A stretch of 64,000 bases of DNA from an uncultured delta proteobacterium (GCA_903869265.1 CAIPYE010000001.1:310001-374000), one strand, 5' to 3'. Shown: positions 2,119-29,880, counted from the first letter of the stretch. The notes: generated by a model from the letters alone, not told the origin. Made by a program: numbers and translations.

Positions 2119-2309
2119 GTTGAGGGGCTTTACCCGCGTCCTCACCCGAGGGCGCGGGCCAACACAATCGTGACCGGACAAAGCTACCCCCTTCGAAAGA
2201 TATTTTTAGCCCGGGACAGGATCATTACAATATCCTGATCGCAATCTAACAATCCCGTGCTATTCTGTTGCTGTTGACTCTATCAACTCCAACCGCAGCG
2301 GGGATTGCC

Positions 2310-4118
2310 ATGCATCGTAAACGCCTTATCTGGCAGCTGTACCCAAGCCAGCTTCTGATCACCATTATCGCCCTTCTGGTCGCCGCCGGCTATGGGGCTT
2401 ATTCCCTCCGGGCCTTTCAGCTGGCCCAGACTTCCGCCGGCCTTGGGGCAAGGGCCCATCTGGCGCAAGAACATATTCTCTCCCTGCTCACCAAAAACGA
2501 CCTGACCGCACTCCAACTCTTCTGCGCAACCGCCGGTAAAGATTCTGCCACCCGTCTGACCGTTATTGGTGCCGACGGCAAGGTTCTGGCAGATTCGGAT
2601 GAAAATCCGGACCGCATGGAAAACCACGGTGACCGGCCGGAGATCATCGCCGCCCTTGCCGACCGACCCGTTCCCTCTCTGCGCTTCAGCCACACCCTCC
2701 AGGAAAACATGATGTATGTGGCAATCCCCCTGGTGCAGAACAATAAAACTATTGGCGTACTCCGCACCGCGATCCCGGTCACCTTCATCGACAGCGCGCT
2801 CAAAAAAATCTTTTTAAAAATCGTATGGGGCTGCCTGATTGTCGCCCTGCTTGTGGCCCTGGTCGCCTGGTTCATCTCCCAACGTATCACCAGGCCGCTG
2901 GAGGAGATGCGGTTGGGTGCCGAACGTTTTGCCAACGGTGTTTTTACCGGCACGCTTCGGGAAGAGGGGGCCGAAGAGGTGGCGAGTCTGGCCCGAGCGA
3001 TGAATGCCATGGCCGATCAGCTTGATGGCCGGATCAAAACCATTGCCCGGCAACACAGCCAGCTGCAGGCGGTCTTTTCCAGCATGGTTGAGGGGGTGAT
3101 CACGGTGGACACCGAAGAGCGCATCCTTGATATCAACCAGGCCGGCGCCAAGCTTCTGAACATCACCCCCGAGAAGCTCCGGGGGAAAAACGCCCTGGTG
3201 GCGGTGCGCAATCTGGCTTTACAGCGCTTTATCAGCCAGGCCCTCGCCTCAGACAAGCCCATCGAAGGAGAGATCGACCTCACCGACCGGGAAGGCCAAG
3301 AAAAATATTTTTACGCCCACGGGACAAGGTTTCAGGATGCCGCGGACTTGACCAGCGGCGCCATCATTGTCATCAACGATGTCACCAACCTGCGGCGATT
3401 GGAAAACATGCGCCGTGACTTTGTGGCCAATGTTTCCCACGAGCTGAAAACCCCGATAACCTCCATCGAAGGCTTTGCCGAAACCCTGCTGGACGGGGCG
3501 CTGGAAAGCCCAGAGGACGCCCGGAGGTTTGTCGAAATAATTGCCAAACAGTCAAAACGATTGCACGCCATCATCGAAGATCTCCTGGCCCTGTCCCGGC
3601 TGGAGCAAGATCAGGAGCAAACCGCGCTGGTGCTGAGCGAAGAAAAAATCATCCACCCCCTGCGCCGGGCCATCGAGACCTGCGGGCTCAAGGCCACCGA
3701 GAAAAAGATCAGCATCGAACTGGAAGCCCCGGATGACCTGACTGCCAAATTCAACAGCCCCCTGCTCGAACAGGCGATCACCAACCTCATCGTCAACGCC
3801 ATCAAATACAGCGACGAGGGCGGCAGGCTGTTGGTGCGGGGAAAACAGCGAGACGAAGAAACAATCGCCATCGAGGTTCAGGATTTCGGGACCGGGGTCG
3901 CAGCCCAGCACCTGCCGCGGTTGTTCGAGCGCTTCTACCGAAGCGATGCGGCCCGCAACCGCAAACTTGGCGGCACCGGCCTCGGACTGGCCATCGTCAA
4001 ACACATTGTCCAAGCGCATGGCGGCGAGGTGGGTGTCATAAGCGAACTCGGCAAGGGCACAACCTTCACCATCCTGCTCCCTAAGGAGAAACACCATGAA
4101 AACACCAATGAAACATAA
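2310..4118 (+). CDS. phoR: PhoR-like sensor histidine kinase (HAMP-PAS-HisKA-HATPase)
   Basis: Two N-terminal TM segments, HAMP region, PAS, H-box FVANVSHELKTPITSIEGFAETLL, G-boxes GTGLGLAIVKHIVQAHGGEV. The start may be 2268 or 2310. Confidence 0.85.
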   Translation: MHRKRLIWQLYPSQLLITIIALLVAAGYGAYSLRAFQLAQTSAGLGARAHLAQEHILSLLTKNDLTALQLFCATAGKDSATRLTVIGADGKVLADSDENPDRMENHGDRPEIIAALADRPVPSLRFSHTLQENMMYVAIPLVQNNKTIGVLRTAIPVTFIDSALKKIFLKIVWGCLIVALLVALVAWFISQRITRPLEEMRLGAERFANGVFTGTLREEGAEEVASLARAMNAMADQLDGRIKTIARQHSQLQAVFSSMVEGVITVDTEERILDINQAGAKLLNITPEKLRGKNALVAVRNLALQRFISQALASDKPIEGEIDLTDREGQEKYFYAHGTRFQDAADLTSGAIIVINDVTNLRRLENMRRDFVANVSHELKTPITSIEGFAETLLDGALESPEDARRFVEIIAKQSKRLHAIIEDLLALSRLEQDQEQTALVLSEEKIIHPLRRAIETCGLKATEKKISIELEAPDDLTAKFNSPLLEQAITNLIVNAIKYSDEGGRLLVRGKQRDEETIAIEVQDFGTGVAAQHLPRLFERFYRSDAARNRKLGGTGLGLAIVKHIVQAHGGEVGVISELGKGTTFTILLPKEKHHENTNET

Positions 4119-4317
4119 CAACCCCAAAACACTGACCACCGCCCTGGAAAAGGCGGCCAAACATATCTGTACGGCCAAAAGCGGGCTGTGCCCCCATATG
4201 GTCGAAGAGTACCCCTGCCCCAGCGATTGCACCCTGGACACCACAGCCTGGGAATGCTGGGCTCAGTACTTCCTCGATCAGGCCACGCCTGCCCGACCCC
4301 AGAATAACACCGACTGA
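4096..4317 (+). CDS. Small Cys-rich hypothetical protein, overlapping the phoR 3' end
   Basis: 73 aa ORF with RBS-like GGAGAAACACC before ATG; five Cys in CTAKSGLC...PCPSDC...WEC; overlaps the phoR stop. Confidence 0.55.
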   Translation: MKTPMKHNNPKTLTTALEKAAKHICTAKSGLCPHMVEEYPCPSDCTLDTTAWECWAQYFLDQATPARPQNNTD

Positions 4318-4464
4318 AAAATCACGACCATCCCCTCCCAGCCCGCCAGACCCCCTCCTGAATCAAACCCTGTTGCAAAGCTAACACACCCCTGACAGAG
4401 ACCACTTATAACTTGAAAAGAAAGAGGATGGTGACGGAGCGCCAATAATCAACCACGGGGTGAG

Positions 4465-6867
4465 ATGATGAGCAGACTTTCTTTCGCAGACATTTCGATA
4501 TCCCTGGCAGGATCGGGGCAAGATCCCAGACCCACGGAACGTGAGTGCATCGCCTTGCTCGGTCTTGACCCCAACAGCCCGGCCAGCCTCCCATTTTTCG
4601 GTTCCGATGCAACCACCGGCTGCGAAAACGAGCTCCAGGTGGCGGTGTCCGGTAACCGCGAGGCGGCGGATCTGCCCAGAGCCATTGAGCAGTCAAGCTA
4701 CTACGCCAACATCATCAAACGGGCCGACCGCGGAGAAACCTCGCCCCGAGCCCGCCGGGACCTGGAGCGCTATCTCAGCGACAACGTCGAGCAGGTCTGG
4801 GAAAACAGCTGGGTGCGTTTCCCCCTCTCCAGCCTGCACCCGAACGCCTTGCATGTCCTGGCCGGTGATCTCAAGGCCGACAAACAAGACCCCAGCCGCG
4901 GCGAACGCACCGATACCGACCGCTTCTTCGTGGAGGAGGGGGGCAAGAAACACCTGCGCATCCCCATCAGCTATCTGCTCAAGCTGGCCCTGGCCGATGT
5001 CATTGGCCAAGGCTCCAGCCATGAAACGGTGCAAAAAACCGGGAGCCGGCTACTCACCCACCTGTTGAACGACAACACCTCGCCGGAGACCTTTTCCTTC
5101 CATGTCACCACCATGCACCCCCACACCGGCTATGGCAAAGCCCTGGCCCGGGAGACGGCCAAGCGCTTCCTCTTTACCCAGCTGCTGATCATGTATGCCA
5201 ACGAAAAATTCGAATTGGTCCGGCGGGGGCAGAAAGCCATGCTCTTTTTCTCCCCGCATCCGCCGATGCGGCAACGGGCCCTGAACGAATGCATCTCCGA
5301 CGCCTTCTACCGCAAGCTGTTCATGAGTCCCTGCCTTTCCGGCTGGGACGAAGGCGAGGCCAAGCACCAGTACATGATCCTCTGCCACCAGGTCTTGAGC
5401 CGCAGCCACCTGAACGCGGTGATGAAAATGCGCGAGGCAGGCATCATCACCAACAATCTGGTGATGATGCCCCACACCTCCAATATCAGCCTGGCCAACA
5501 ACGGAACCCATGTCAGCATGGGCAGCCGCAAGATGAGCCGATTGCTGGGCGACCCCGGCTCCGGCTTCACCCCACGCCACGAAAAATGTGTGGGCGATCT
5601 GGTGGCCAAGATCATGGAGCACTTCCTCCCGCTCTTTGTTTCCACTTACAGCGCCGCACCCTACCGTCTGGCCTTCGAGGATTTTCATCCGGAACAGGCC
5701 CTGGGCTTTCTCCCCCACCAACTGGACTACACCCATCTGCGCATGCTCTGGCGGCGCTGGCGGAAAAAGGCGCACAACAAATTGTGCGGCCAGGCGCTCA
5801 CTCCCTTCGGCCCCCAGTTTATCGACCATATCGTCGGAAAGGCCTGCCGCTGCAAGGGGGATTTCATCCCGGACTTCCGGCTCATCGATTACCCGGTGGC
5901 CCTGCTTTCCACCGAGCGGAGCGCCAGCCAGGACGGACGAATGCACAATGACCGCCGCCTCAAGGAAGACCTGGACATGATGGGCATCTTTGACAAACGG
6001 ATGTCGGTCTACCTGCCGTACAAGCTGCGGGAATTCGAGGTCATGGGTTTTTCCGGCTTCGAGGCCCGCTACTATTCGCAATTTGAGCAGTTTGCCGGCG
6101 ACCTGGGCCGGGCCACCGACCTGCAGATGCTGCTCAACGCCCTGGCCTTCAAGCTCATCGCCGCAGGCAGCTGCAGCCATCAGCATATCCCCGACACCCC
6201 CTTTGTAGAAAGCGAGCGGCGGCAGATTCTGTTCGGCACGGCCATCGGCATCCCCACCTTTTTCGTGCACAAGGATACGCCCAACCGTTTCCTGCGGACC
6301 ATCCTGAAGAAAACCAAAAACACCCGGACAAGCCGCCGCTACGGGGGTTATCTCCGGGTATTACACCATGAATACCGCCTGGCCCTGCTTGAAATCATCC
6401 GCGAAGAGGCGGGTGAGCTGGTGGAGGGTTTCGGCTTTACCGATCTGCTGGCCGATTTGGAGCTACGGTTGCGGGAGCCCGCCAAGCATGGGGCCTTGGG
6501 TCGACTGACCACCGGAATTCTCGCCAAGGGGGGCGCCGATTCCCCCTACGACATGTCGGCCAAGGAGTTCAATCTGACTGCGGAGCGCTATTACCGCGAA
6601 GATCTGCGGCAGGAGCAGATCAACGAAGGGTGGCAGTATGTCGCCGAGGAGATAAAGGCCATGGCAGCCAGCGAGATCCCGCTCTCCCTGGAGATGCGCG
6701 ATGAAGTGACCGCCATTCTTGGCACCCAGGAGGTCGACGGTTTCCTCCGCCAGACCCAGGATGAACTGCTGGGCGATTCGCTTGCCCCGGCAAACGCGGC
6801 GCGGTTGCTGCAGCTCATGCTCATCGCCGAGGATCTGGACAGCAAGCGGCAGAAACATACGCTTTAG
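4465..6867 (+). CDS. Uncharacterised 800-aa protein
   Basis: Long ORF in a tight cluster with psd-like and lgt-like genes; no family recognised by eye. Confidence 0.85.
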   Translation: MMSRLSFADISISLAGSGQDPRPTERECIALLGLDPNSPASLPFFGSDATTGCENELQVAVSGNREAADLPRAIEQSSYYANIIKRADRGETSPRARRDLERYLSDNVEQVWENSWVRFPLSSLHPNALHVLAGDLKADKQDPSRGERTDTDRFFVEEGGKKHLRIPISYLLKLALADVIGQGSSHETVQKTGSRLLTHLLNDNTSPETFSFHVTTMHPHTGYGKALARETAKRFLFTQLLIMYANEKFELVRRGQKAMLFFSPHPPMRQRALNECISDAFYRKLFMSPCLSGWDEGEAKHQYMILCHQVLSRSHLNAVMKMREAGIITNNLVMMPHTSNISLANNGTHVSMGSRKMSRLLGDPGSGFTPRHEKCVGDLVAKIMEHFLPLFVSTYSAAPYRLAFEDFHPEQALGFLPHQLDYTHLRMLWRRWRKKAHNKLCGQALTPFGPQFIDHIVGKACRCKGDFIPDFRLIDYPVALLSTERSASQDGRMHNDRRLKEDLDMMGIFDKRMSVYLPYKLREFEVMGFSGFEARYYSQFEQFAGDLGRATDLQMLLNALAFKLIAAGSCSHQHIPDTPFVESERRQILFGTAIGIPTFFVHKDTPNRFLRTILKKTKNTRTSRRYGGYLRVLHHEYRLALLEIIREEAGELVEGFGFTDLLADLELRLREPAKHGALGRLTTGILAKGGADSPYDMSAKEFNLTAERYYREDLRQEQINEGWQYVAEEIKAMAASEIPLSLEMRDEVTAILGTQEVDGFLRQTQDELLGDSLAPANAARLLQLMLIAEDLDSKRQKHTL

Positions 6868-6877
6868 GAGAGCAGCC

Positions 6878-7894
6878 ATGCACCAGTATGTCGAAAGGTT
6901 GAGCGGCACAGTGATCACCGAAGAACTCTTCGGTGACCGGATCGTCCGTTTCCTTTACTCCCGGGCCAGGGAGCAGGCCCCTTTTCTTTTTCGTCTGGCG
7001 ACCTCGGCCCGCATGTCAAGCCTGTTGGGCCTCTACCATTTTGATCTGGCGCTGGGGCCTCGGCTGAGGGGGAACTCCCGCTTCTTGGCGCGCTGCGGCG
7101 TCGATCTTGACGAATGCGTGGCCCCACGGGAACACTTCATCACCCCACGCAAGATCTTCGAGCGGCAGATCCGCTACTGGCAGTGCCGACCCATGCCGCA
7201 GGGGGAGGACGCCGTGGTCTCACCCGCCGATGCCCGGGTGGCGCTGGGATCCCTGGCCTCAGATTCCCCGCTTTTTCTCAAGGACAAGTTTTTCAACTAC
7301 GAGGAATTATTGGGCGCTGACCATCGCCTTTGGCTTGAGGTCTTCAGCCATGGCGACTACGCCGTCTTCCGGCTGACCCCGGACAAGTACCATTACAATC
7401 ATACCCCGGTCTCCGGCAGGGTGGTGGATCATTATTCCCTGGGCGGCGTTTATCATTCCTGCAATCCCGGCGCGGTGGTGGAGATGATCACCCCCTACTC
7501 CAAAAATAAACGGGTGGTCACCATTATCGACACCGATGTGCCCGGCGGCACCGGGGTGGGGTATGTGGCCATGGTGGAAGTGGTGGCCATGATGATCGGC
7601 GACATTGTGCAATGTTACAGCGATACGGGCTATGACCATCCGCTACGAATCCGACCCGGCATGTTCCTAAGCAAAGGACAGCCCAAAAGTCTCTACCGGC
7701 CGGGGAGCAGCACCGACATCCTCTTTTTTGAAAAGGATCGAATCCGTTTTGCCGAGGATCTCCTTGAAAAAGGGAGCCAAACCAATGTGCACAGCCGCTT
7801 CAGCCTCGGCTTCGGTCGGCCCCTGGTGGAGGTGGAGGTCCAGGCACGATCCCTCATCGCCATGACAAACCCTAAAGAAGGAGAAACGACATGA
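6878..7894 (+). CDS. Phosphatidylserine decarboxylase family protein
   Basis: PSD-like segments (VVSPADARV, KDKFFNYEELLG, YHYNHTPVSGRVVDHYSLGGVYHSCNP) and candidate autocleavage motif RPGSSTDILFFEKDRI; ATG at 6878 with GGAG upstream. Confidence 0.85.
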   Translation: MHQYVERLSGTVITEELFGDRIVRFLYSRAREQAPFLFRLATSARMSSLLGLYHFDLALGPRLRGNSRFLARCGVDLDECVAPREHFITPRKIFERQIRYWQCRPMPQGEDAVVSPADARVALGSLASDSPLFLKDKFFNYEELLGADHRLWLEVFSHGDYAVFRLTPDKYHYNHTPVSGRVVDHYSLGGVYHSCNPGAVVEMITPYSKNKRVVTIIDTDVPGGTGVGYVAMVEVVAMMIGDIVQCYSDTGYDHPLRIRPGMFLSKGQPKSLYRPGSSTDILFFEKDRIRFAEDLLEKGSQTNVHSRFSLGFGRPLVEVEVQARSLIAMTNPKEGETT

Positions 7895-8949
7895 GCAATG
7901 GCCTTTTCATCCTGATCCTGGGCCTGGTGCTGCATCCCCTGCTGTTGCGGGCCTACAAGATTCTGCCGCGCGAGAAGTGGCAGATCATCGCCGCGATCCC
8001 GACCACGAAAGCCGCCACGCTGGATGGCTGCTGGCACGGCACCAATGTCACCTATTACGGGGCGCTGCTGGCCAGCGGCAGTCTTTTCGGGGCGATGGTC
8101 TTCTTTCTGCTTCTGGGAGCCCTGGGTCTGCCCATGTGGGGGATCATCGGGCTGCTTCTCGGGGTGATGGGCTGCTCGGTGGCCGCAGCCAAGCTTATCG
8201 CCATGGCGGTGGAAAAGAAACGGAACACCTTCACCGTTGGGGGCGCCGCCATCATCGGTCTCTTGAGCATGCCGCCTGCTGTGGCAGCCTATAATGGGCT
8301 GGCCTCGCAGTGGGATGCGCCACCGGTTTCCCTCATCCCGGTGATGGGTGCCTTGGTGGTCGCCTATCTGTTGGGCGAGGGGATTGGTCGGCTCGCCTGC
8401 CTCAGCTTCGGCTGCTGCTACGGCAAGCCCTTGTCCGAGTTGGGGCCGAAAGCGCGCTGGCTCTTTGCACCTTTCTCCACCACCTTCCATGGCTCCACTA
8501 AGAAGATTTCTTACGCCTCAGGCCTTGCGGGGGTGGGAGTGGTGCCGATCCAAGCCATCACCTCATTGCTTTCGGTGAACATCGGCCTGGTCGCCATGTA
8601 TCTTTTCCTGGAAGGCGCTTTCCGGGCCTCCTTTCTGCTCGCCGCCCTCTTTGCCCTTGGCTGGCGCATCCTGTCCGAGTATTTCCGTGCCGACTACCGG
8701 GGTGAGGGGAAATTTTCCGCTTACCAGCGCATGGCCCTGGCCGGCATGGGCTACTGCCTCCTTCTGTCCCTGTCTGTCGGCACTGGCGCAGACAGCCAAA
8801 CCAATCTGGGCGTCGGGCTTGCCTCGCTCTGGAATCCTGCCGCCCTGCTGTTCTTTCAGACCCTCTGGCTGCTGCTTTTCATCTACACGGGAGTCAGTTC
8901 AGTAACCGGCGCCATGCTCACCTTTCATGTGCGAGGGGAAAAAATATAA
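7891..8949 (+). CDS. Prolipoprotein diacylglyceryl transferase (Lgt)-like membrane protein
   Basis: Multi-TM protein with GEGIGRLACLSFGCCYGKP, like the GR(I/L)xCFxxGCCYGKP of Lgt-like families; ATGA overlap with the upstream psd-like gene. Confidence 0.75.
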   Translation: MSNGLFILILGLVLHPLLLRAYKILPREKWQIIAAIPTTKAATLDGCWHGTNVTYYGALLASGSLFGAMVFFLLLGALGLPMWGIIGLLLGVMGCSVAAAKLIAMAVEKKRNTFTVGGAAIIGLLSMPPAVAAYNGLASQWDAPPVSLIPVMGALVVAYLLGEGIGRLACLSFGCCYGKPLSELGPKARWLFAPFSTTFHGSTKKISYASGLAGVGVVPIQAITSLLSVNIGLVAMYLFLEGAFRASFLLAALFALGWRILSEYFRADYRGEGKFSAYQRMALAGMGYCLLLSLSVGTGADSQTNLGVGLASLWNPAALLFFQTLWLLLFIYTGVSSVTGAMLTFHVRGEKI

Positions 8950-9189: not shown

Positions 9190-10907
<1,718 letters not shown>

Positions 10908-10923
10908 GCAGGGGGGGGAAAGC

Positions 10924-11721
10924 ATGCATCAAACGTACACGGATATCCTGGTTGAACAGGAGCGCCTGTGGCGCAAATCTTTGGCGCTTACTGCGGGAAT
11001 ACTCGCCCTTGTCATCGGCTTCTCCTTTTATACAGGGCTTTTTGATCCCCAACGTCTTTATGAAGGCATTCCCTCTATTGTCAGCCTGATGAGAGAAGGG
11101 CTTCCGCCGGACTTCAGCGCAGCCAGAACCTGGCTGAAGCCCCTGCTCGACACCCTGGCTATGAGCATCGCCGGCACAGCCATTGCGGTTTTCTTCTCGG
11201 TGCCACTGGGGTTGCTTGCCGCCCGCAACACGAGCCCCCATCCGCTCGTCTATCAGATGGCCCGCGCCATCCTGAACGGACTGCGTTCTGTGCCTGAGTT
11301 GATTCTGGGGATACTCTTCGTGGCTGCCGTTGGTTTTGGGGCACTGCCGGGCGTTTTGGCCTTGGGCCTCCATTCCATCGGCATGGTGGGCAAATTTATC
11401 TCCGAGGCGATCGAACATGTAGCGGAGGAACCATTGGAGGCGACGCGTTCCGCTGGGGCTACCCCGCTCCAAGTCATTACCCATGGGGTGCTTCCCCAGG
11501 TACTTCCCCAGATTGCCGATGTAACGATCTATCGCTGGGAATACAATTTCCGGGCTTCCACGGTTATGGGCATGGTAGGAGCCGGCGGTATCGGCTTCCA
11601 ATTGATGGGCTCTCTCCGCCTCATGCAATATCAGGAGGTAACCGCCATTCTGCTGGTTATCCTGGCGGCGGTTACCATGGTCGATGGCATCGGTATCCAT
11701 TTACGAAAACGTTTTAAATAG
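10924..11721 (+). CDS. ptxC: Phosphite/phosphonate ABC transporter permease (PtxC/PhnE-like)
   Basis: PhnE-type permease with EAA-loop-like [18 protein letters not shown] and [23 protein letters not shown]. Confidence 0.87.
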
Positions 11722-11731
11722 GATGAATGTA

Positions 11732-12730
11732 ATGAAACCGAAAGTTGTGATTACCCAACAGGTCCATCGGGAAGTCCTTGATCTGCTTTCTGCATCCTGC
11801 GAGGTAGAGGCCAATACAAGCACGGAACCGTGGCCTCCGGAAATTCTCCGCGCCAAAGCCAAGGACGCCAAAGGAATCATGGTTTTCATGCCCGACAGCA
11901 TCGACGAAAACTTTCTCGACGACTGCCCGGAGTTGGCAGTGGTGGGGGCAGCCCTGAAGGGCTATGACAATTTTGACGTTCAAGCCTGCACCGAGCGTGG
12001 CATCTGGTTTACCAATGTCCCGGACCTGCTGACCATTCCAACTGCGGAACTGACCATCGGTCTGATGATCGGCCTGTCGCGCAATATCTCGGCGGGCGAT
12101 GGTTTTATGCGCAGCGGTCGCTTCCAGGGATGGAGACCGCACCTTTACGGAACCGGCCTAGCCGGCAGCACCGTCGGAATCATCGGCATGGGCGCGGTTG
12201 GTCAAGCAACAGCCCGATGCCTGCAAGGGTTCTCCGCTCATCTTCTCTATTACGACCAGCAGCCGCTTCCGCCGGAAAAAGAACAGGAACTGGCCTTGAC
12301 CTTGCTTCCTTTCGAAAAGGTCCTCGCAGAAAGCGATTTTACCGTGGTGATACTGCCGTTAACGGAAAAAACACTCTGGATGATCGATAAAAAGGCTATT
12401 TCACATATGAAGGAAGGGAGTTTTCTAATCAATACAGGCCGAGGCTCGGTGGTTGACGAACAAGCCGTAGCCGCAGCCCTTGCGAGCGGCAGATTGGCCG
12501 GTTATGCAGCGGATGTCTTTGCCATGGAGGATTGGGCCTGGAGTGACCGGCCGGTCGCAGTTCCCGGAGAATTGCTGAAAAACCAGCGGCAAACCTTTCT
12601 CACCCCGCATCTTGGTTCTGCCGTCAATGCGGTAAGGCTGGAGATTGCCATGGAGGCGGCGAAAAATATTTTACAGGCCCTGGCTGGCGACACCCCACAA
12701 GGTGCGTTAAACCAACCAAAAGCCCGTTAA
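11732..12730 (+). CDS. ptxD: Phosphite dehydrogenase (PtxD-like, NAD-dependent D-2-hydroxyacid dehydrogenase family)
   Basis: Strong remembered resemblance to Pseudomonas stutzeri PtxD across its length: [100 protein letters not shown]-like end. Confidence 0.9.
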
Positions 12731-26374: not shown

Positions 26375-27976
26375 TTAATCCACCTCAACCCGCCTGGGCA
26401 ACCCTCCGCCACCGCCCTGATATGCGGCCTCACGCCGGTTCACCAGTTCCTGCTGGTTGTCCTGGTCCAGTGCAAGACGGTCACCACTGCGCTTACTTGC
26501 AAATCGAACCAGAACATCCCATAATTCCGTGGTCGGCTCGGGCGCATTCAGGCCGACCCTACCCCCAAAATATTCCCGCTGATGGAGCGCAGGTCCCTTT
26601 GGTAGTGCAATGGTATAGACCGCCTCTGGCCTCGGCGCCATCGGCCCCCAGTAGGCGGATTCAGGCAGGGAAGCTTTTACCCGCATCAACTCCTTGCCCG
26701 TAATCTTCAACCGATACAGACTGGTAAACCCAGGAGTGCCGGCAGGCTCACGCTCCACCGAGAAGGCGTCAAGGACATCCTGCCTGGTCAAACTCCCCTT
26801 GCGCCACTCCTTGCGTACCGCATTCAAACCTACAAAAGCTGCATCGACCTTCAGCGTTTCCACGGCAGCCCGGGCGGCGAGCATGGCCATGTCCCCCTTG
26901 CTTTGATCGGCGTAAAGATGGGTGAAGCCCTCATAAAGAGCGCCCTGATACCCACGTAAAATCCGTTTCACCGCCCTATCTGTAACCTCATCCACCGGCG
27001 TTTCACGCTCACGATTCGGGATGAGGGAAAAGGCACTCTGCTGGATACGTCTTTTTTGCAGATCATATTCGATATCGAACCTGCCGATATTCTTGGCCCA
27101 GGCGCCGACATGAACGATTGTTGTGCCACCCACCTGAATGGGTGTTGACATCAGGGTATGGCTATGGCCGCCCAGAATCAAATCGACACCCTGTGTTTCC
27201 TTGGCCAGACGAGTATCCTCCTCTATTCCCAGATGACTGACCAGAACCAGCAGATCAACCTCCCCCCGATGTTTTGCGATGATATCGCGGGTGATTTTCG
27301 CATAATCAAAATCCGAGCGCAACCCCGGCATCTCGGGATAAAATCCCCCCGCATACTGTTCATCCTTTTCATTCCAAGGCTTGGAGACCAGACCGAAGAA
27401 ACCGATTTTCACCTGTCCCACCTGCAGTACGGCATAATCGGTCCAGCCCGGCTGCTTTGCGTCTTTATCACCGGAATGCGCCCCGGTCATTTTCGTATTG
27501 GAAGCGAGCACGATTGAAAAGGGGTCGCGGCTAAAGGCAAGCAATTCATCAATCCCCCAGGCAAAGTCATGATTGCCGATGGTGCGCACATCGTAATGCA
27601 TCGCCTGTACTATTTCCCTGGTGACCAACCCGCGGGAAACCTCCTCGGCAATGGAGCCCTTTTCGTAGTCATCCCCAGCGTTGGTGAAAATCGTATACGG
27701 GTTTTCCCTTCTCACTTGCTCACAATAACCGCGGAGCCTTGCGACCGGACTCGAGCCACCCCTGATAGGGTTATAGTTGGCGTGGACATCGGATACATGG
27801 ACAAAAGAAATCTTCTGAATTATGGCTGAACCATCCCCGGAGGGCCAGCGCGGTTGGTCTTGGACAAAACCGCCTCCTGCCCCGCCGAGAGATAATGCCC
27901 CGGAAGGAAGCAACCCAACACAAGAAACGAAGCAAGTCACAAAGAAATACTTCCTGCAGACGGGCAATATTTTCAT
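26375..27976 (-). CDS. Exported 5'-nucleotidase/UshA-like metallophosphoesterase
   Basis: Signal peptide; FVHVSDVHANYNP, TNAGDDYEKGS, GNHDFAWG, LGGHSHT motifs and a C-terminal 5'-nucleotidase domain. Confidence 0.85.
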   Translation of the reverse strand: MKILPVCRKYFFVTCFVSCVGLLPSGALSLGGAGGGFVQDQPRWPSGDGSAIIQKISFVHVSDVHANYNPIRGGSSPVARLRGYCEQVRRENPYTIFTNAGDDYEKGSIAEEVSRGLVTREIVQAMHYDVRTIGNHDFAWGIDELLAFSRDPFSIVLASNTKMTGAHSGDKDAKQPGWTDYAVLQVGQVKIGFFGLVSKPWNEKDEQYAGGFYPEMPGLRSDFDYAKITRDIIAKHRGEVDLLVLVSHLGIEEDTRLAKETQGVDLILGGHSHTLMSTPIQVGGTTIVHVGAWAKNIGRFDIEYDLQKRRIQQSAFSLIPNRERETPVDEVTDRAVKRILRGYQGALYEGFTHLYADQSKGDMAMLAARAAVETLKVDAAFVGLNAVRKEWRKGSLTRQDVLDAFSVEREPAGTPGFTSLYRLKITGKELMRVKASLPESAYWGPMAPRPEAVYTIALPKGPALHQREYFGGRVGLNAPEPTTELWDVLVRFASKRSGDRLALDQDNQQELVNRREAAYQGGGGGLPRRVEVD

Positions 27977-28129
27977 CTTCTCTGAAACGATACTGTTCAC
28001 CACGATGGAAGATTAAATGTTGCATAGCACTGTTCCTGTTTAGGTATTAATGAATAAATGTTACAAATGGATTAATAACAGATAATCTTTTGATGAGGCT
28101 TACACCTCTAAATAAATTCTCACGGTTCC

Positions 28130-28157
28130 CTTACATAAATCTAACATTCATCCTGTA
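28130..28157 (+). promoter_or_regulatory. Candidate PhoB box upstream of the PHP phosphoesterase gene
   Basis: CTTACA (28130), CTAACA (28141), CCTGTA (28152) with 11-bp periodicity, in the divergent intergenic region. Confidence 0.5.
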
Positions 28158-28263: not shown

Positions 28264-29880
28264 ATGAAAAATTATCACCAAATAATAACCAAACGAACGG
28301 TCGTATTCTTGATGCTGCTCGTTCTTTCAATAAGCCTGGCATCACCGGGAAACGGGCAAGAGAATGGCCGCTGGCTGGCCGGAGATTTCCACAACCATAC
28401 CTTTCTTACCGATGGCAGCATTGCGGCGGAAGATGTCTTCTCCCACGCTTTCCGCTTCAACCTCGACTGGATCGCCAATTCCGAACATGGCGGAACCTAT
28501 GGCCGAGGCCCCGATGGCCTGCCCTGGCCCTCCGCCGGAGTCACCTTTCTCGGCGATCCGCCTGCAGGCAAAATGTGGCGCTGGCAATCCTTGCTGCAGT
28601 ACTCCTATCCGCTCATCCACAAAGCACGGGCGACGTATCCAGAAAAGCTGATCATCCAGGGATATGAATGGAATGTCCCCACCCATGAACATGCCAGTGT
28701 CGGCATCATCGATACGGCTGAGGAGGGAGGAGTGGCAATCGCCCGTCATGAATACCTCTTTGACGCCAAGGACACCTCCACCACGACAGACGGCTTCCTG
28801 ACCAAGGAGGACAAACGGACAAAAAATGACCACGCCAAGGCGGTGGTCGGCGTTGCCTGGCTTGAAGAAAATTACCGAACAAGCGGTTATTGCGTGCTCA
28901 ACCATCCCTCCAGACAACTCGGATATTCCATCAGCGACATCCGGGACTTCAACACTGCCGCACCGCATATCGCCTTCGGCTTCGAAGGATTTCCCGGCCA
29001 CCAGAAGGCAGCCTCCCGCGGCAATTACGACCAGGGGCCATTCCGGGACGCGGTCGGCAACGACATCACCGATAGAGCCCGCACCTATGGCGGCGCCGAC
29101 CTCATGCTCGCCAAGATCGGCGGCACTTGGGATGCGTTGCTCGGCGAAGGGCGACACTTCTACGTCTTTGCCAACTCCGATTTTCACAATCCGGAAAACG
29201 ATTTCTGGCCCGGGGAATACACCAAGAATCACACCTTTGTCCGCGATACCAATCGGGATGGGAAATATTCCCAACTTGAACTGCTGGAAGGAATGCGTTC
29301 AGGCAACTCTTTTATCGTGCATGGAGACCTGATCAGTGGACTGCGGTTCACAGCACAGTCCCGCAAGAAAAAGGCGGAGATGGGTGACACCCTGCATGCC
29401 CTGGCTGGCAGCGAGGTAACGATTACGATCAGCTTCAAAAGTCCGCCCAAAAATAACCATGGCGACACGGTTGCCGTGGACCACATTGATCTGATCGCCG
29501 GAGAGATGGCAGGCAAAGTTTCCAGACTGCTTGCCGACGGCACAACCCCGAACCCCGGCTACGAAAAAGAGACTAACGAAACCACCCGGGTAATCGCCAC
29601 CTTTACCGACAAAGACTGGCGGCCTACAAATAAACCCGGCACCGGCAGGAAAAGAACCGCCGACAGCGGTTGGCGGACAGTGAGCTACCATGTAAGACCG
29701 CTCCAGCACGACATGTACTTCCGCCTGCGCGGAACCAATCTCCGTTGCGGCGTCGACGGAGAAACCGACAGAAAATGCAATCCCATGGCCGACGAGCTTC
29801 TGGGATCGAACAACCAGAACAAAGCCTATGCCGATCTCTGGTTTTATTCAAATCCGCTTTTTGTCCGGGTGTCCCGTTAA
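28264..29880 (+). CDS. Exported PHP-domain (CehA/McbA-like) metallohydrolase
   Basis: Signal peptide; GDFHNHTFLTDGSIAAEDVFSHAFRFNLDWIANSEHGG, later HPSRQ and NSDFHNPEND metal motifs. Confidence 0.75.
   Translation: MKNYHQIITKRTVVFLMLLVLSISLASPGNGQENGRWLAGDFHNHTFLTDGSIAAEDVFSHAFRFNLDWIANSEHGGTYGRGPDGLPWPSAGVTFLGDPPAGKMWRWQSLLQYSYPLIHKARATYPEKLIIQGYEWNVPTHEHASVGIIDTAEEGGVAIARHEYLFDAKDTSTTTDGFLTKEDKRTKNDHAKAVVGVAWLEENYRTSGYCVLNHPSRQLGYSISDIRDFNTAAPHIAFGFEGFPGHQKAASRGNYDQGPFRDAVGNDITDRARTYGGADLMLAKIGGTWDALLGEGRHFYVFANSDFHNPENDFWPGEYTKNHTFVRDTNRDGKYSQLELLEGMRSGNSFIVHGDLISGLRFTAQSRKKKAEMGDTLHALAGSEVTITISFKSPPKNNHGDTVAVDHIDLIAGEMAGKVSRLLADGTTPNPGYEKETNETTRVIATFTDKDWRPTNKPGTGRKRTADSGWRTVSYHVRPLQHDMYFRLRGTNLRCGVDGETDRKCNPMADELLGSNNQNKAYADLWFYSNPLFVRVSR

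Follow-up and report, generated by a model that had tools for sequence, protein, structure and literature searches.

A near-obligate gene trio of a predicted ligase, a PSD-like and an LGT-like protein: a possible phosphate-starvation lipid pathway

What might three tightly packed genes do together, when one encodes a protein outside the curated sequence families and the other two resemble enzymes that handle phospholipids and lipoproteins? The question is raised by a 64-kb window, the whole stretch of 64,000 nt analysed here, from an uncultured delta proteobacterium with a genome of 2.8 Mb, the nearest named carriers of the first gene being metagenome-assembled genomes of Desulfobulbaceae and Deltaproteobacteria. 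The three genes lie on the plus strand. The first (4465-6867) encodes an 800-residue protein, hereafter HYP, which is predicted to be a carboxylate-amine ligase; its fold would be that of glutamate-cysteine ligase (GCL) and glutamine synthetase, extended by large insertions and by a helical part at the C-terminus. The second (6878-7894) encodes a 338-residue pyruvoyl-dependent decarboxylase resembling phosphatidylserine decarboxylase (PSD-like, PF02666), and the third (7891-8949) a 352-residue membrane protein (LGT-like, PF01790), a predicted diacylglyceryl-type transferase with an altered acceptor site (GRxxCxxxGCCYGK). A preliminary description, made from the DNA alone, gave the coordinates, strand and lengths correctly, together with the 10-nt gap between HYP and the PSD-like gene (6868-6877) and the 4-nt ATGA overlap between the PSD-like and LGT-like genes (7891-7894). 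The start of the PSD-like gene is the conserved MHQY at 6878 and not that of a longer open frame opening with TTG.

HYP is a real gene and strongly conserved, with identities of 84-93% within the genus and 45-62% in more distant relatives, and 20 of 58 close relatives carry it. Across 396 genomes of the phylum, full HYP is present in 49, the PSD-like gene in 50 and the LGT-like gene in 50; all 49 HYP genomes carry both partners on one contig and one strand in identical order, which corresponds to a log10 P of about -61 for random drawing, relatedness being ignored. The fiftieth genome (G165) has no full HYP because the contig end cuts the gene: 137 nt of contig remain beyond the PSD-like gene, and they contain an open frame resembling the C-terminus of HYP. 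The three proteins also co-vary in their pairwise distances (r 0.85-0.91), and high-scoring PSD-like proteins occur in the 396 genomes only together with HYP and the LGT-like protein. A scan of GTDB contigs yielded 332 stretches encoding HYP relatives, and in the best 80 of 332, which were kept, the order HYP-PSD-LGT on a single strand recurs almost throughout. The exceptions are contig ends, one locus with the LGT-like gene upstream (L048), and three loci with a partner not within about 10 kb (L060, L069 and L080). These best 80 of 332 include Desulfobulbaceae, Geobacteraceae and Geomonas, Desulfuromusa and Syntrophaceae, as well as contigs binned as Candidatus Brocadia, Acidobacteria and Victivallales; cultured carriers are Trichlorobacter thiogenes, Citrifermentans bremense, Geomonas and Desulfuromusa kysingii. 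The trio is thus a near-obligate module and not a chance neighbourhood, a point on which we have hardly any doubt, and the co-function proposed in the preliminary description is strongly supported. Among open-licence papers, none was found that joins these three gene types.

Apart from one fragment, a lone 31-residue match, possibly a remnant, in a genome without the module (G395:C1:3048054-3048146), a search of the phylum for distant HYP relatives left a gap in the scores from about 990 bits down to no match at all. Some neighbours of the trio vary with lineage. In Syntrophales-type loci, a DksA/TraR-type gene follows the PSD-like gene, mostly before the LGT-like gene (L043, L048, L052, L063, L064, L068, L087, L090, L094 and L097). 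In Geobacterales-type loci, two unannotated families of 732 residues (L050:7503-9701) and 247 residues (L074:4752-5495) recur near the trio, both without a Pfam or NCBIfam match.

What kind of protein is HYP? Comparison with Pfam, NCBIfam and PDB sequence families gave no match, and the HYP profile retrieved from PDB sequences only weak NifB matches, which we took as chance. None of 11 HYP members matched a GCL-family Pfam model, and hhalign of the HYP profile against a single GshA and against an eight-member GCL alignment gave no significant match. The GCL / glutamine synthetase fold was predicted from the GxExELQ and NNGxHxSxGS motifs prior to the structure model. The AlphaFold2 model built with 73 sequences (pLDDT 89.4, pTM 0.92) was then compared with the PDB by Foldseek, where ranks 1-9 are all GCL/GshF or PafA and yeast GCL stands at rank 11. 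The scores are modest (E 0.008-1.3, none below 0.001; probability 0.60-1.00; target TM 0.31-0.49), as expected for 800 residues with long insertions. Residues invariant in the 73 sequences comprise G52-x-E54-x-E56, D203 and E208, G347-x-H349, Y516 with K/R520 and R522, and E533-x-R535; paired by eye, they follow the same order as the GshA motifs G25-x-E27-x-E29, D60...E67, G148-x-H150, Y300...R304 and E328-x-R330. The segment GRLACLSFGCCYGK, described earlier as His/Asn-rich, is present and conserved, but what distinguishes it is not composition: it holds the invariant N345-N346-G347-x-H349 strand, a predicted part of the active site. By its modelled fold, HYP is very likely a member of the glutamate-cysteine ligase / glutamine synthetase superfamily and, because the GshA profile comparison fails, not GshA itself (PF04262). 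The earlier statement that HYP has no family therefore holds for curated sequence families but not for the fold. Neither of the two outcomes that the preliminary description named as refuting its proposal came about: no curated sequence family matches HYP, and the trio recurs in other genomes. Model and motifs together predict an ATP-dependent carboxylate-amine ligase.

The PSD-like protein matches PF02666 with an E-value of 1.4e-37, and a search with its profile finds solved Psd chains at 1e-16, with PsiD-type matches also among the results. Its invariant residues D118, H172, H175 and G276-S277-S278 align with D90, H144, H147 and G253-S254 of E. coli Psd, and the GSST motif noticed earlier is found within a conserved RPGSSTD. 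Since the decarboxylase triad is kept, an active pyruvoyl enzyme is expected from the alignment. Homology to NCBIfam PRK00723 extends over the full length (residues 2-308), with 132.7 bits lying below the equivalog cut-off of 371. Another contig of the host genome carries a canonical psd (214 residues) followed by a CDP-alcohol phosphatidyltransferase-like gene, named pssA by eye, and phosphatidylethanolamine synthesis therefore has no need of the PSD-like gene. Given this pair, we rejected the reading of the PSD-like protein as an ordinary second Psd.

The LGT-like protein matches PF01790 just above cut-off (E 1.2e-5), and all 27 aligned members of its family match PF01790 too. Its AlphaFold2 model (pLDDT 88.5) has E. 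coli Lgt (5azb) as Foldseek rank 1, with an E-value of 7.4e-4, a probability of 1.00 and a TM of 0.54. In E. coli Lgt numbering, Y26, R143, G154, R239, E243 and R246 are kept in 27 of 27 sequences, in which the arginines corresponding to Arg143, Arg239 and Arg246 are the invariant R167, R259 and R266. In Lgt, the head-group site for phosphatidylglycerol is lined by these three arginines, His103 has been proposed as the base that acts on the lipobox thiol, and His103, Asn146 and Tyr235 are required for activity (PMC8689077). The LGT-like family has replaced His103, Asn146, Glu151, Ser198, Glu202 and Tyr235, with V/I, C and T/A aligned at His103, Asn146 and Tyr235, respectively, and has three invariant cysteines (Cys170, Cys175 and Cys176). 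Because the phosphatidylglycerol-site arginines stay and His103 and other residues are replaced, the alignment suggests a preserved donor side and an altered acceptor side. With His103, Asn146 and Tyr235 gone, diacylglyceryl transfer may be lost or proceed via other chemistry. The host genome encodes a separate canonical Lgt; given this copy and the changed His103 position, we rejected the reading of the LGT-like protein as an ordinary Lgt.

Is the trio connected with phosphate? A Pho-box-like direct repeat, TGTCAGGGGTGTGTTAG, lies on the minus strand at 4381-4397, 67 nt before HYP, and TATAAC follows at 4408-4413; the repeat is largely conserved in the genus, where TATA(A/G)C comes after it. 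The pattern TGTNA-N6-TGTNA resembles the PhoB site of Desulfovibrio vulgaris, a (C/T)GTNAC repeat (PMC3333781). Exact copies lie in the 200-nt region upstream of HYP at 16 of 72 loci, compared with about 1% for shuffled sequences, and the other 56 of 72 are without an exact box. The same pattern precedes pstS in 6 of 13 cases, and PSD or LGT in none. Among the remaining genes of these loci that have free upstream regions, 11% carry it too, many of these regions being shared divergent or Pho-type promoters, for instance of a GT4 glycosyltransferase or ppk. A strict scan for the E. coli PHO box (CTGTCAT repeat) is only weakly raised at HYP, and the delta-type TGTNA repeat is needed; most genus-level boxes, including 4381-4397, are reversed relative to the E. 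coli PHO box. Two exact copies in the 64-kb window are not above chance, and the weight of the 4381-4397 repeat rests on its position and not on copy number. In the host genome, the genus-specific box pattern is confined to one site, 4381-4397, and so names no further regulon members. The other exact TGTNA-N6-TGTNA copy in the window (28131-28146) is intergenic between two divergent genes, a 5'-nucleotidase-like metallophosphoesterase (26375-28003, minus strand) and a secreted PHP-like protein with no Pfam match (28264-29880, plus strand), which are candidate Pho-regulated phosphoesterases.

The neighbouring genes point in the same direction. Upstream of the trio, a sensor histidine kinase of the PhoR/PnpS type is encoded at 2268-4118 on the plus strand (NCBIfam PnpS 389.7 bits, cut-off 400; phoR_proteo 301 bits, cut-off 334). 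Downstream, on the same strand, a phosphonate/phosphite-type ABC transporter comprising PhnC, PhnD and PhnE (9190-11721; TIGR02315, TIGR01098 and TIGR01097 above cut-off) is followed by a D-2-hydroxyacid dehydrogenase family protein (11684-12730), matched by 2-hydroxyacid dehydrogenase models but by none above its own cut-off; judging from its family and gene context, we only suspect that it is a phosphite dehydrogenase (PtxD). Among 79 fetched loci, pst or phoU is found in 21, ppk or ppx in 9 and either in 30, many lineages being represented, where pst/phoU would be expected in 1.5-3 of 79, assuming 3-6 such sites per 3.5-Mb genome. Judging from promoter sequence and neighbours, the trio is likely to be under Pho control, and the phosphate hint of the preliminary description is backed by the Pho-regulon neighbours and the Pho-box-like site. 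Three further features were observed around these genes. A Cys-rich small open frame of 73 residues without a Pfam match overlaps the end of the PhoR-like gene (4096-4317). An ABC-led run resembling PhnC-PhnD-PhnE plus the dehydrogenase (9190-12730) follows the trio in two other loci (L022 and L026). In 15 of 79 loci (L045:6255-8717, L042, L047, L061, L066 and others), a fusion of PHP-like and GT4 glycosyltransferase parts is found close to the trio, in some with a Pho-box-like repeat, its best NCBIfam similarities including glycolipid synthases.

How could the three proteins act together? Glutamate-cysteine ligase joins a carboxylate to an amine at the expense of ATP. We propose that the trio forms one pathway, which low phosphate would switch on through PhoR/PhoB. 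HYP would join an amino acid or another carboxylate to an amine, driven by ATP, giving an amide-linked precursor of an amino head group, and the PSD-like protein would strip the carboxyl group from the amino-acid unit thus made. The LGT-like protein would then transfer diacylglyceryl from phosphatidylglycerol to the head group, freeing glycerol phosphate. Such a route would yield a diacylglyceryl lipid that lacks phosphorus and is probably zwitterionic, and would recover phosphate. We favour a lipid route because a ligase fold, a pyruvoyl decarboxylase and an Lgt fold are always found together and are linked to Pho. The computed support consists of the obligate linkage, the fold classes, the kept and lost catalytic residues, the proximity of Pho genes and the Pho-box-like site; the order of steps, the substrates and the phosphorus-free product are what we infer from it. 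That the trio as a whole is a phosphate-starvation lipid pathway has, in our estimate, a little less than an even chance, and a phosphorus-free product is a somewhat more tentative proposal. The topology poses a difficulty, as Lgt acts periplasmically and HYP and the PSD-like protein have no evident export signal.

Three other functions, and the possibility of no joint function, were weighed against this proposal. The trio might instead modify the head group of an existing phospholipid, for example by aminoacylating phosphatidylserine or phosphatidylethanolamine and then decarboxylating it, with the phosphorus kept and the LGT-like protein shuttling or rearranging the diacylglyceryl part. A phosphatidyl substrate would be natural for a full-length homologue of the membrane phosphatidylserine decarboxylases with its triad kept. 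However, the Pho linkage favours phosphorus sparing, and lipid head groups are known to be aminoacylated by aminoacyl-tRNA transferases, not by proteins of the GCL fold, and we regard such a modification as unlikely. Somewhat less probable still is a soluble small molecule, such as a glutathione-like gamma-glutamyl amine or thiol, anchored or exported by the LGT-like protein and serving stress or metal handling instead of membrane replacement. The GCL fold of HYP would suit this product, GshA (PF04262) was not found in the host genome, and free amino acids can be substrates of PSD-fold proteins, as the PsiD-type matches indicate; yet this would leave unexplained both the Pho context and why an Lgt-fold protein with its phosphatidylglycerol-site arginines retained is an obligate partner.

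Lipidation of a protein or peptide, the lipoprotein option of the preliminary description, draws on the Lgt fold of the LGT-like protein. We consider it very improbable, given that a canonical Lgt is present separately, that the residues Lgt needs at positions 103, 146 and 235 are missing, and that the neighbourhood clusters showed no small, conserved protein that could serve as substrate. Given the PSD and Lgt relatives, a role in lipids or lipoproteins stays plausible, the lipoprotein half looking less likely than the lipid half. Membership in PF02666 would also agree with a plain second phosphatidylserine decarboxylase in a loose cluster, but the canonical psd-pssA pair is present, and the co-occurrence, with high-scoring PSD-like proteins confined to genomes having both partners, nearly refutes it, leaving it scarcely credible.

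If the phosphorus-sparing lipid route is correct, about one eighth of the sampled phylum genomes (49 of 396) would carry an unrecognised lipid pathway, and genes could be named for unassigned lipids of phosphate-limited anaerobes. The glutamine synthetase superfamily would gain a ligase family, and an Lgt-fold enzyme would have been recruited for phosphatidylglycerol recycling. The widest form of the claim, a phosphorus-free membrane lipid of a new class that replaces phospholipids in phosphate-starved anaerobes and is made by an Lgt-fold enzyme used for lipid and not lipoprotein synthesis, with diacylglyceryl passing from phosphatidylglycerol to an amino head group that ligase and decarboxylase have built, is possible, though we hold it with distinct reserve.

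Each protein may finally be compared with its known relatives. HYP shares with GshA and GshF of the glutamine synthetase superfamily the fold (Foldseek ranks 1-7) and the order of the ExE, GxH and ExR metal/substrate motifs, whereas it has 800 residues compared to about 520, carries large insertions, has no profile match and is fixed in a lipid-type cluster. The PSD-like protein resembles the phosphatidylserine decarboxylases, in particular the clostridial type (PRK00723), in its full-length homology and Asp-His-Ser autocleavage set, but differs in its score far below the cut-off and its separation from the canonical psd-pssA pair. The LGT-like protein has the fold of E. coli Lgt and equivalents of R143, R239, E243, R246 and Y26, and departs from it in the six replaced residues and the three invariant cysteines. 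As to the pathway, phosphate-starved Desulfovibrio makes glycolipids (Agt) and ornithine lipids (OlsF) (PMC5193443). In the host genome, neither BtaA (PF11899) nor the PF13444 acyltransferases of known amino-lipid routes were found. Although none of the trio belongs to the enzyme families of the Agt, OlsF or BtaA pathways, these Pho-controlled phosphorus-free lipids, including the betaine lipids of BtaA, share with the trio the phosphate-starvation context and the ecological role that we propose for it.
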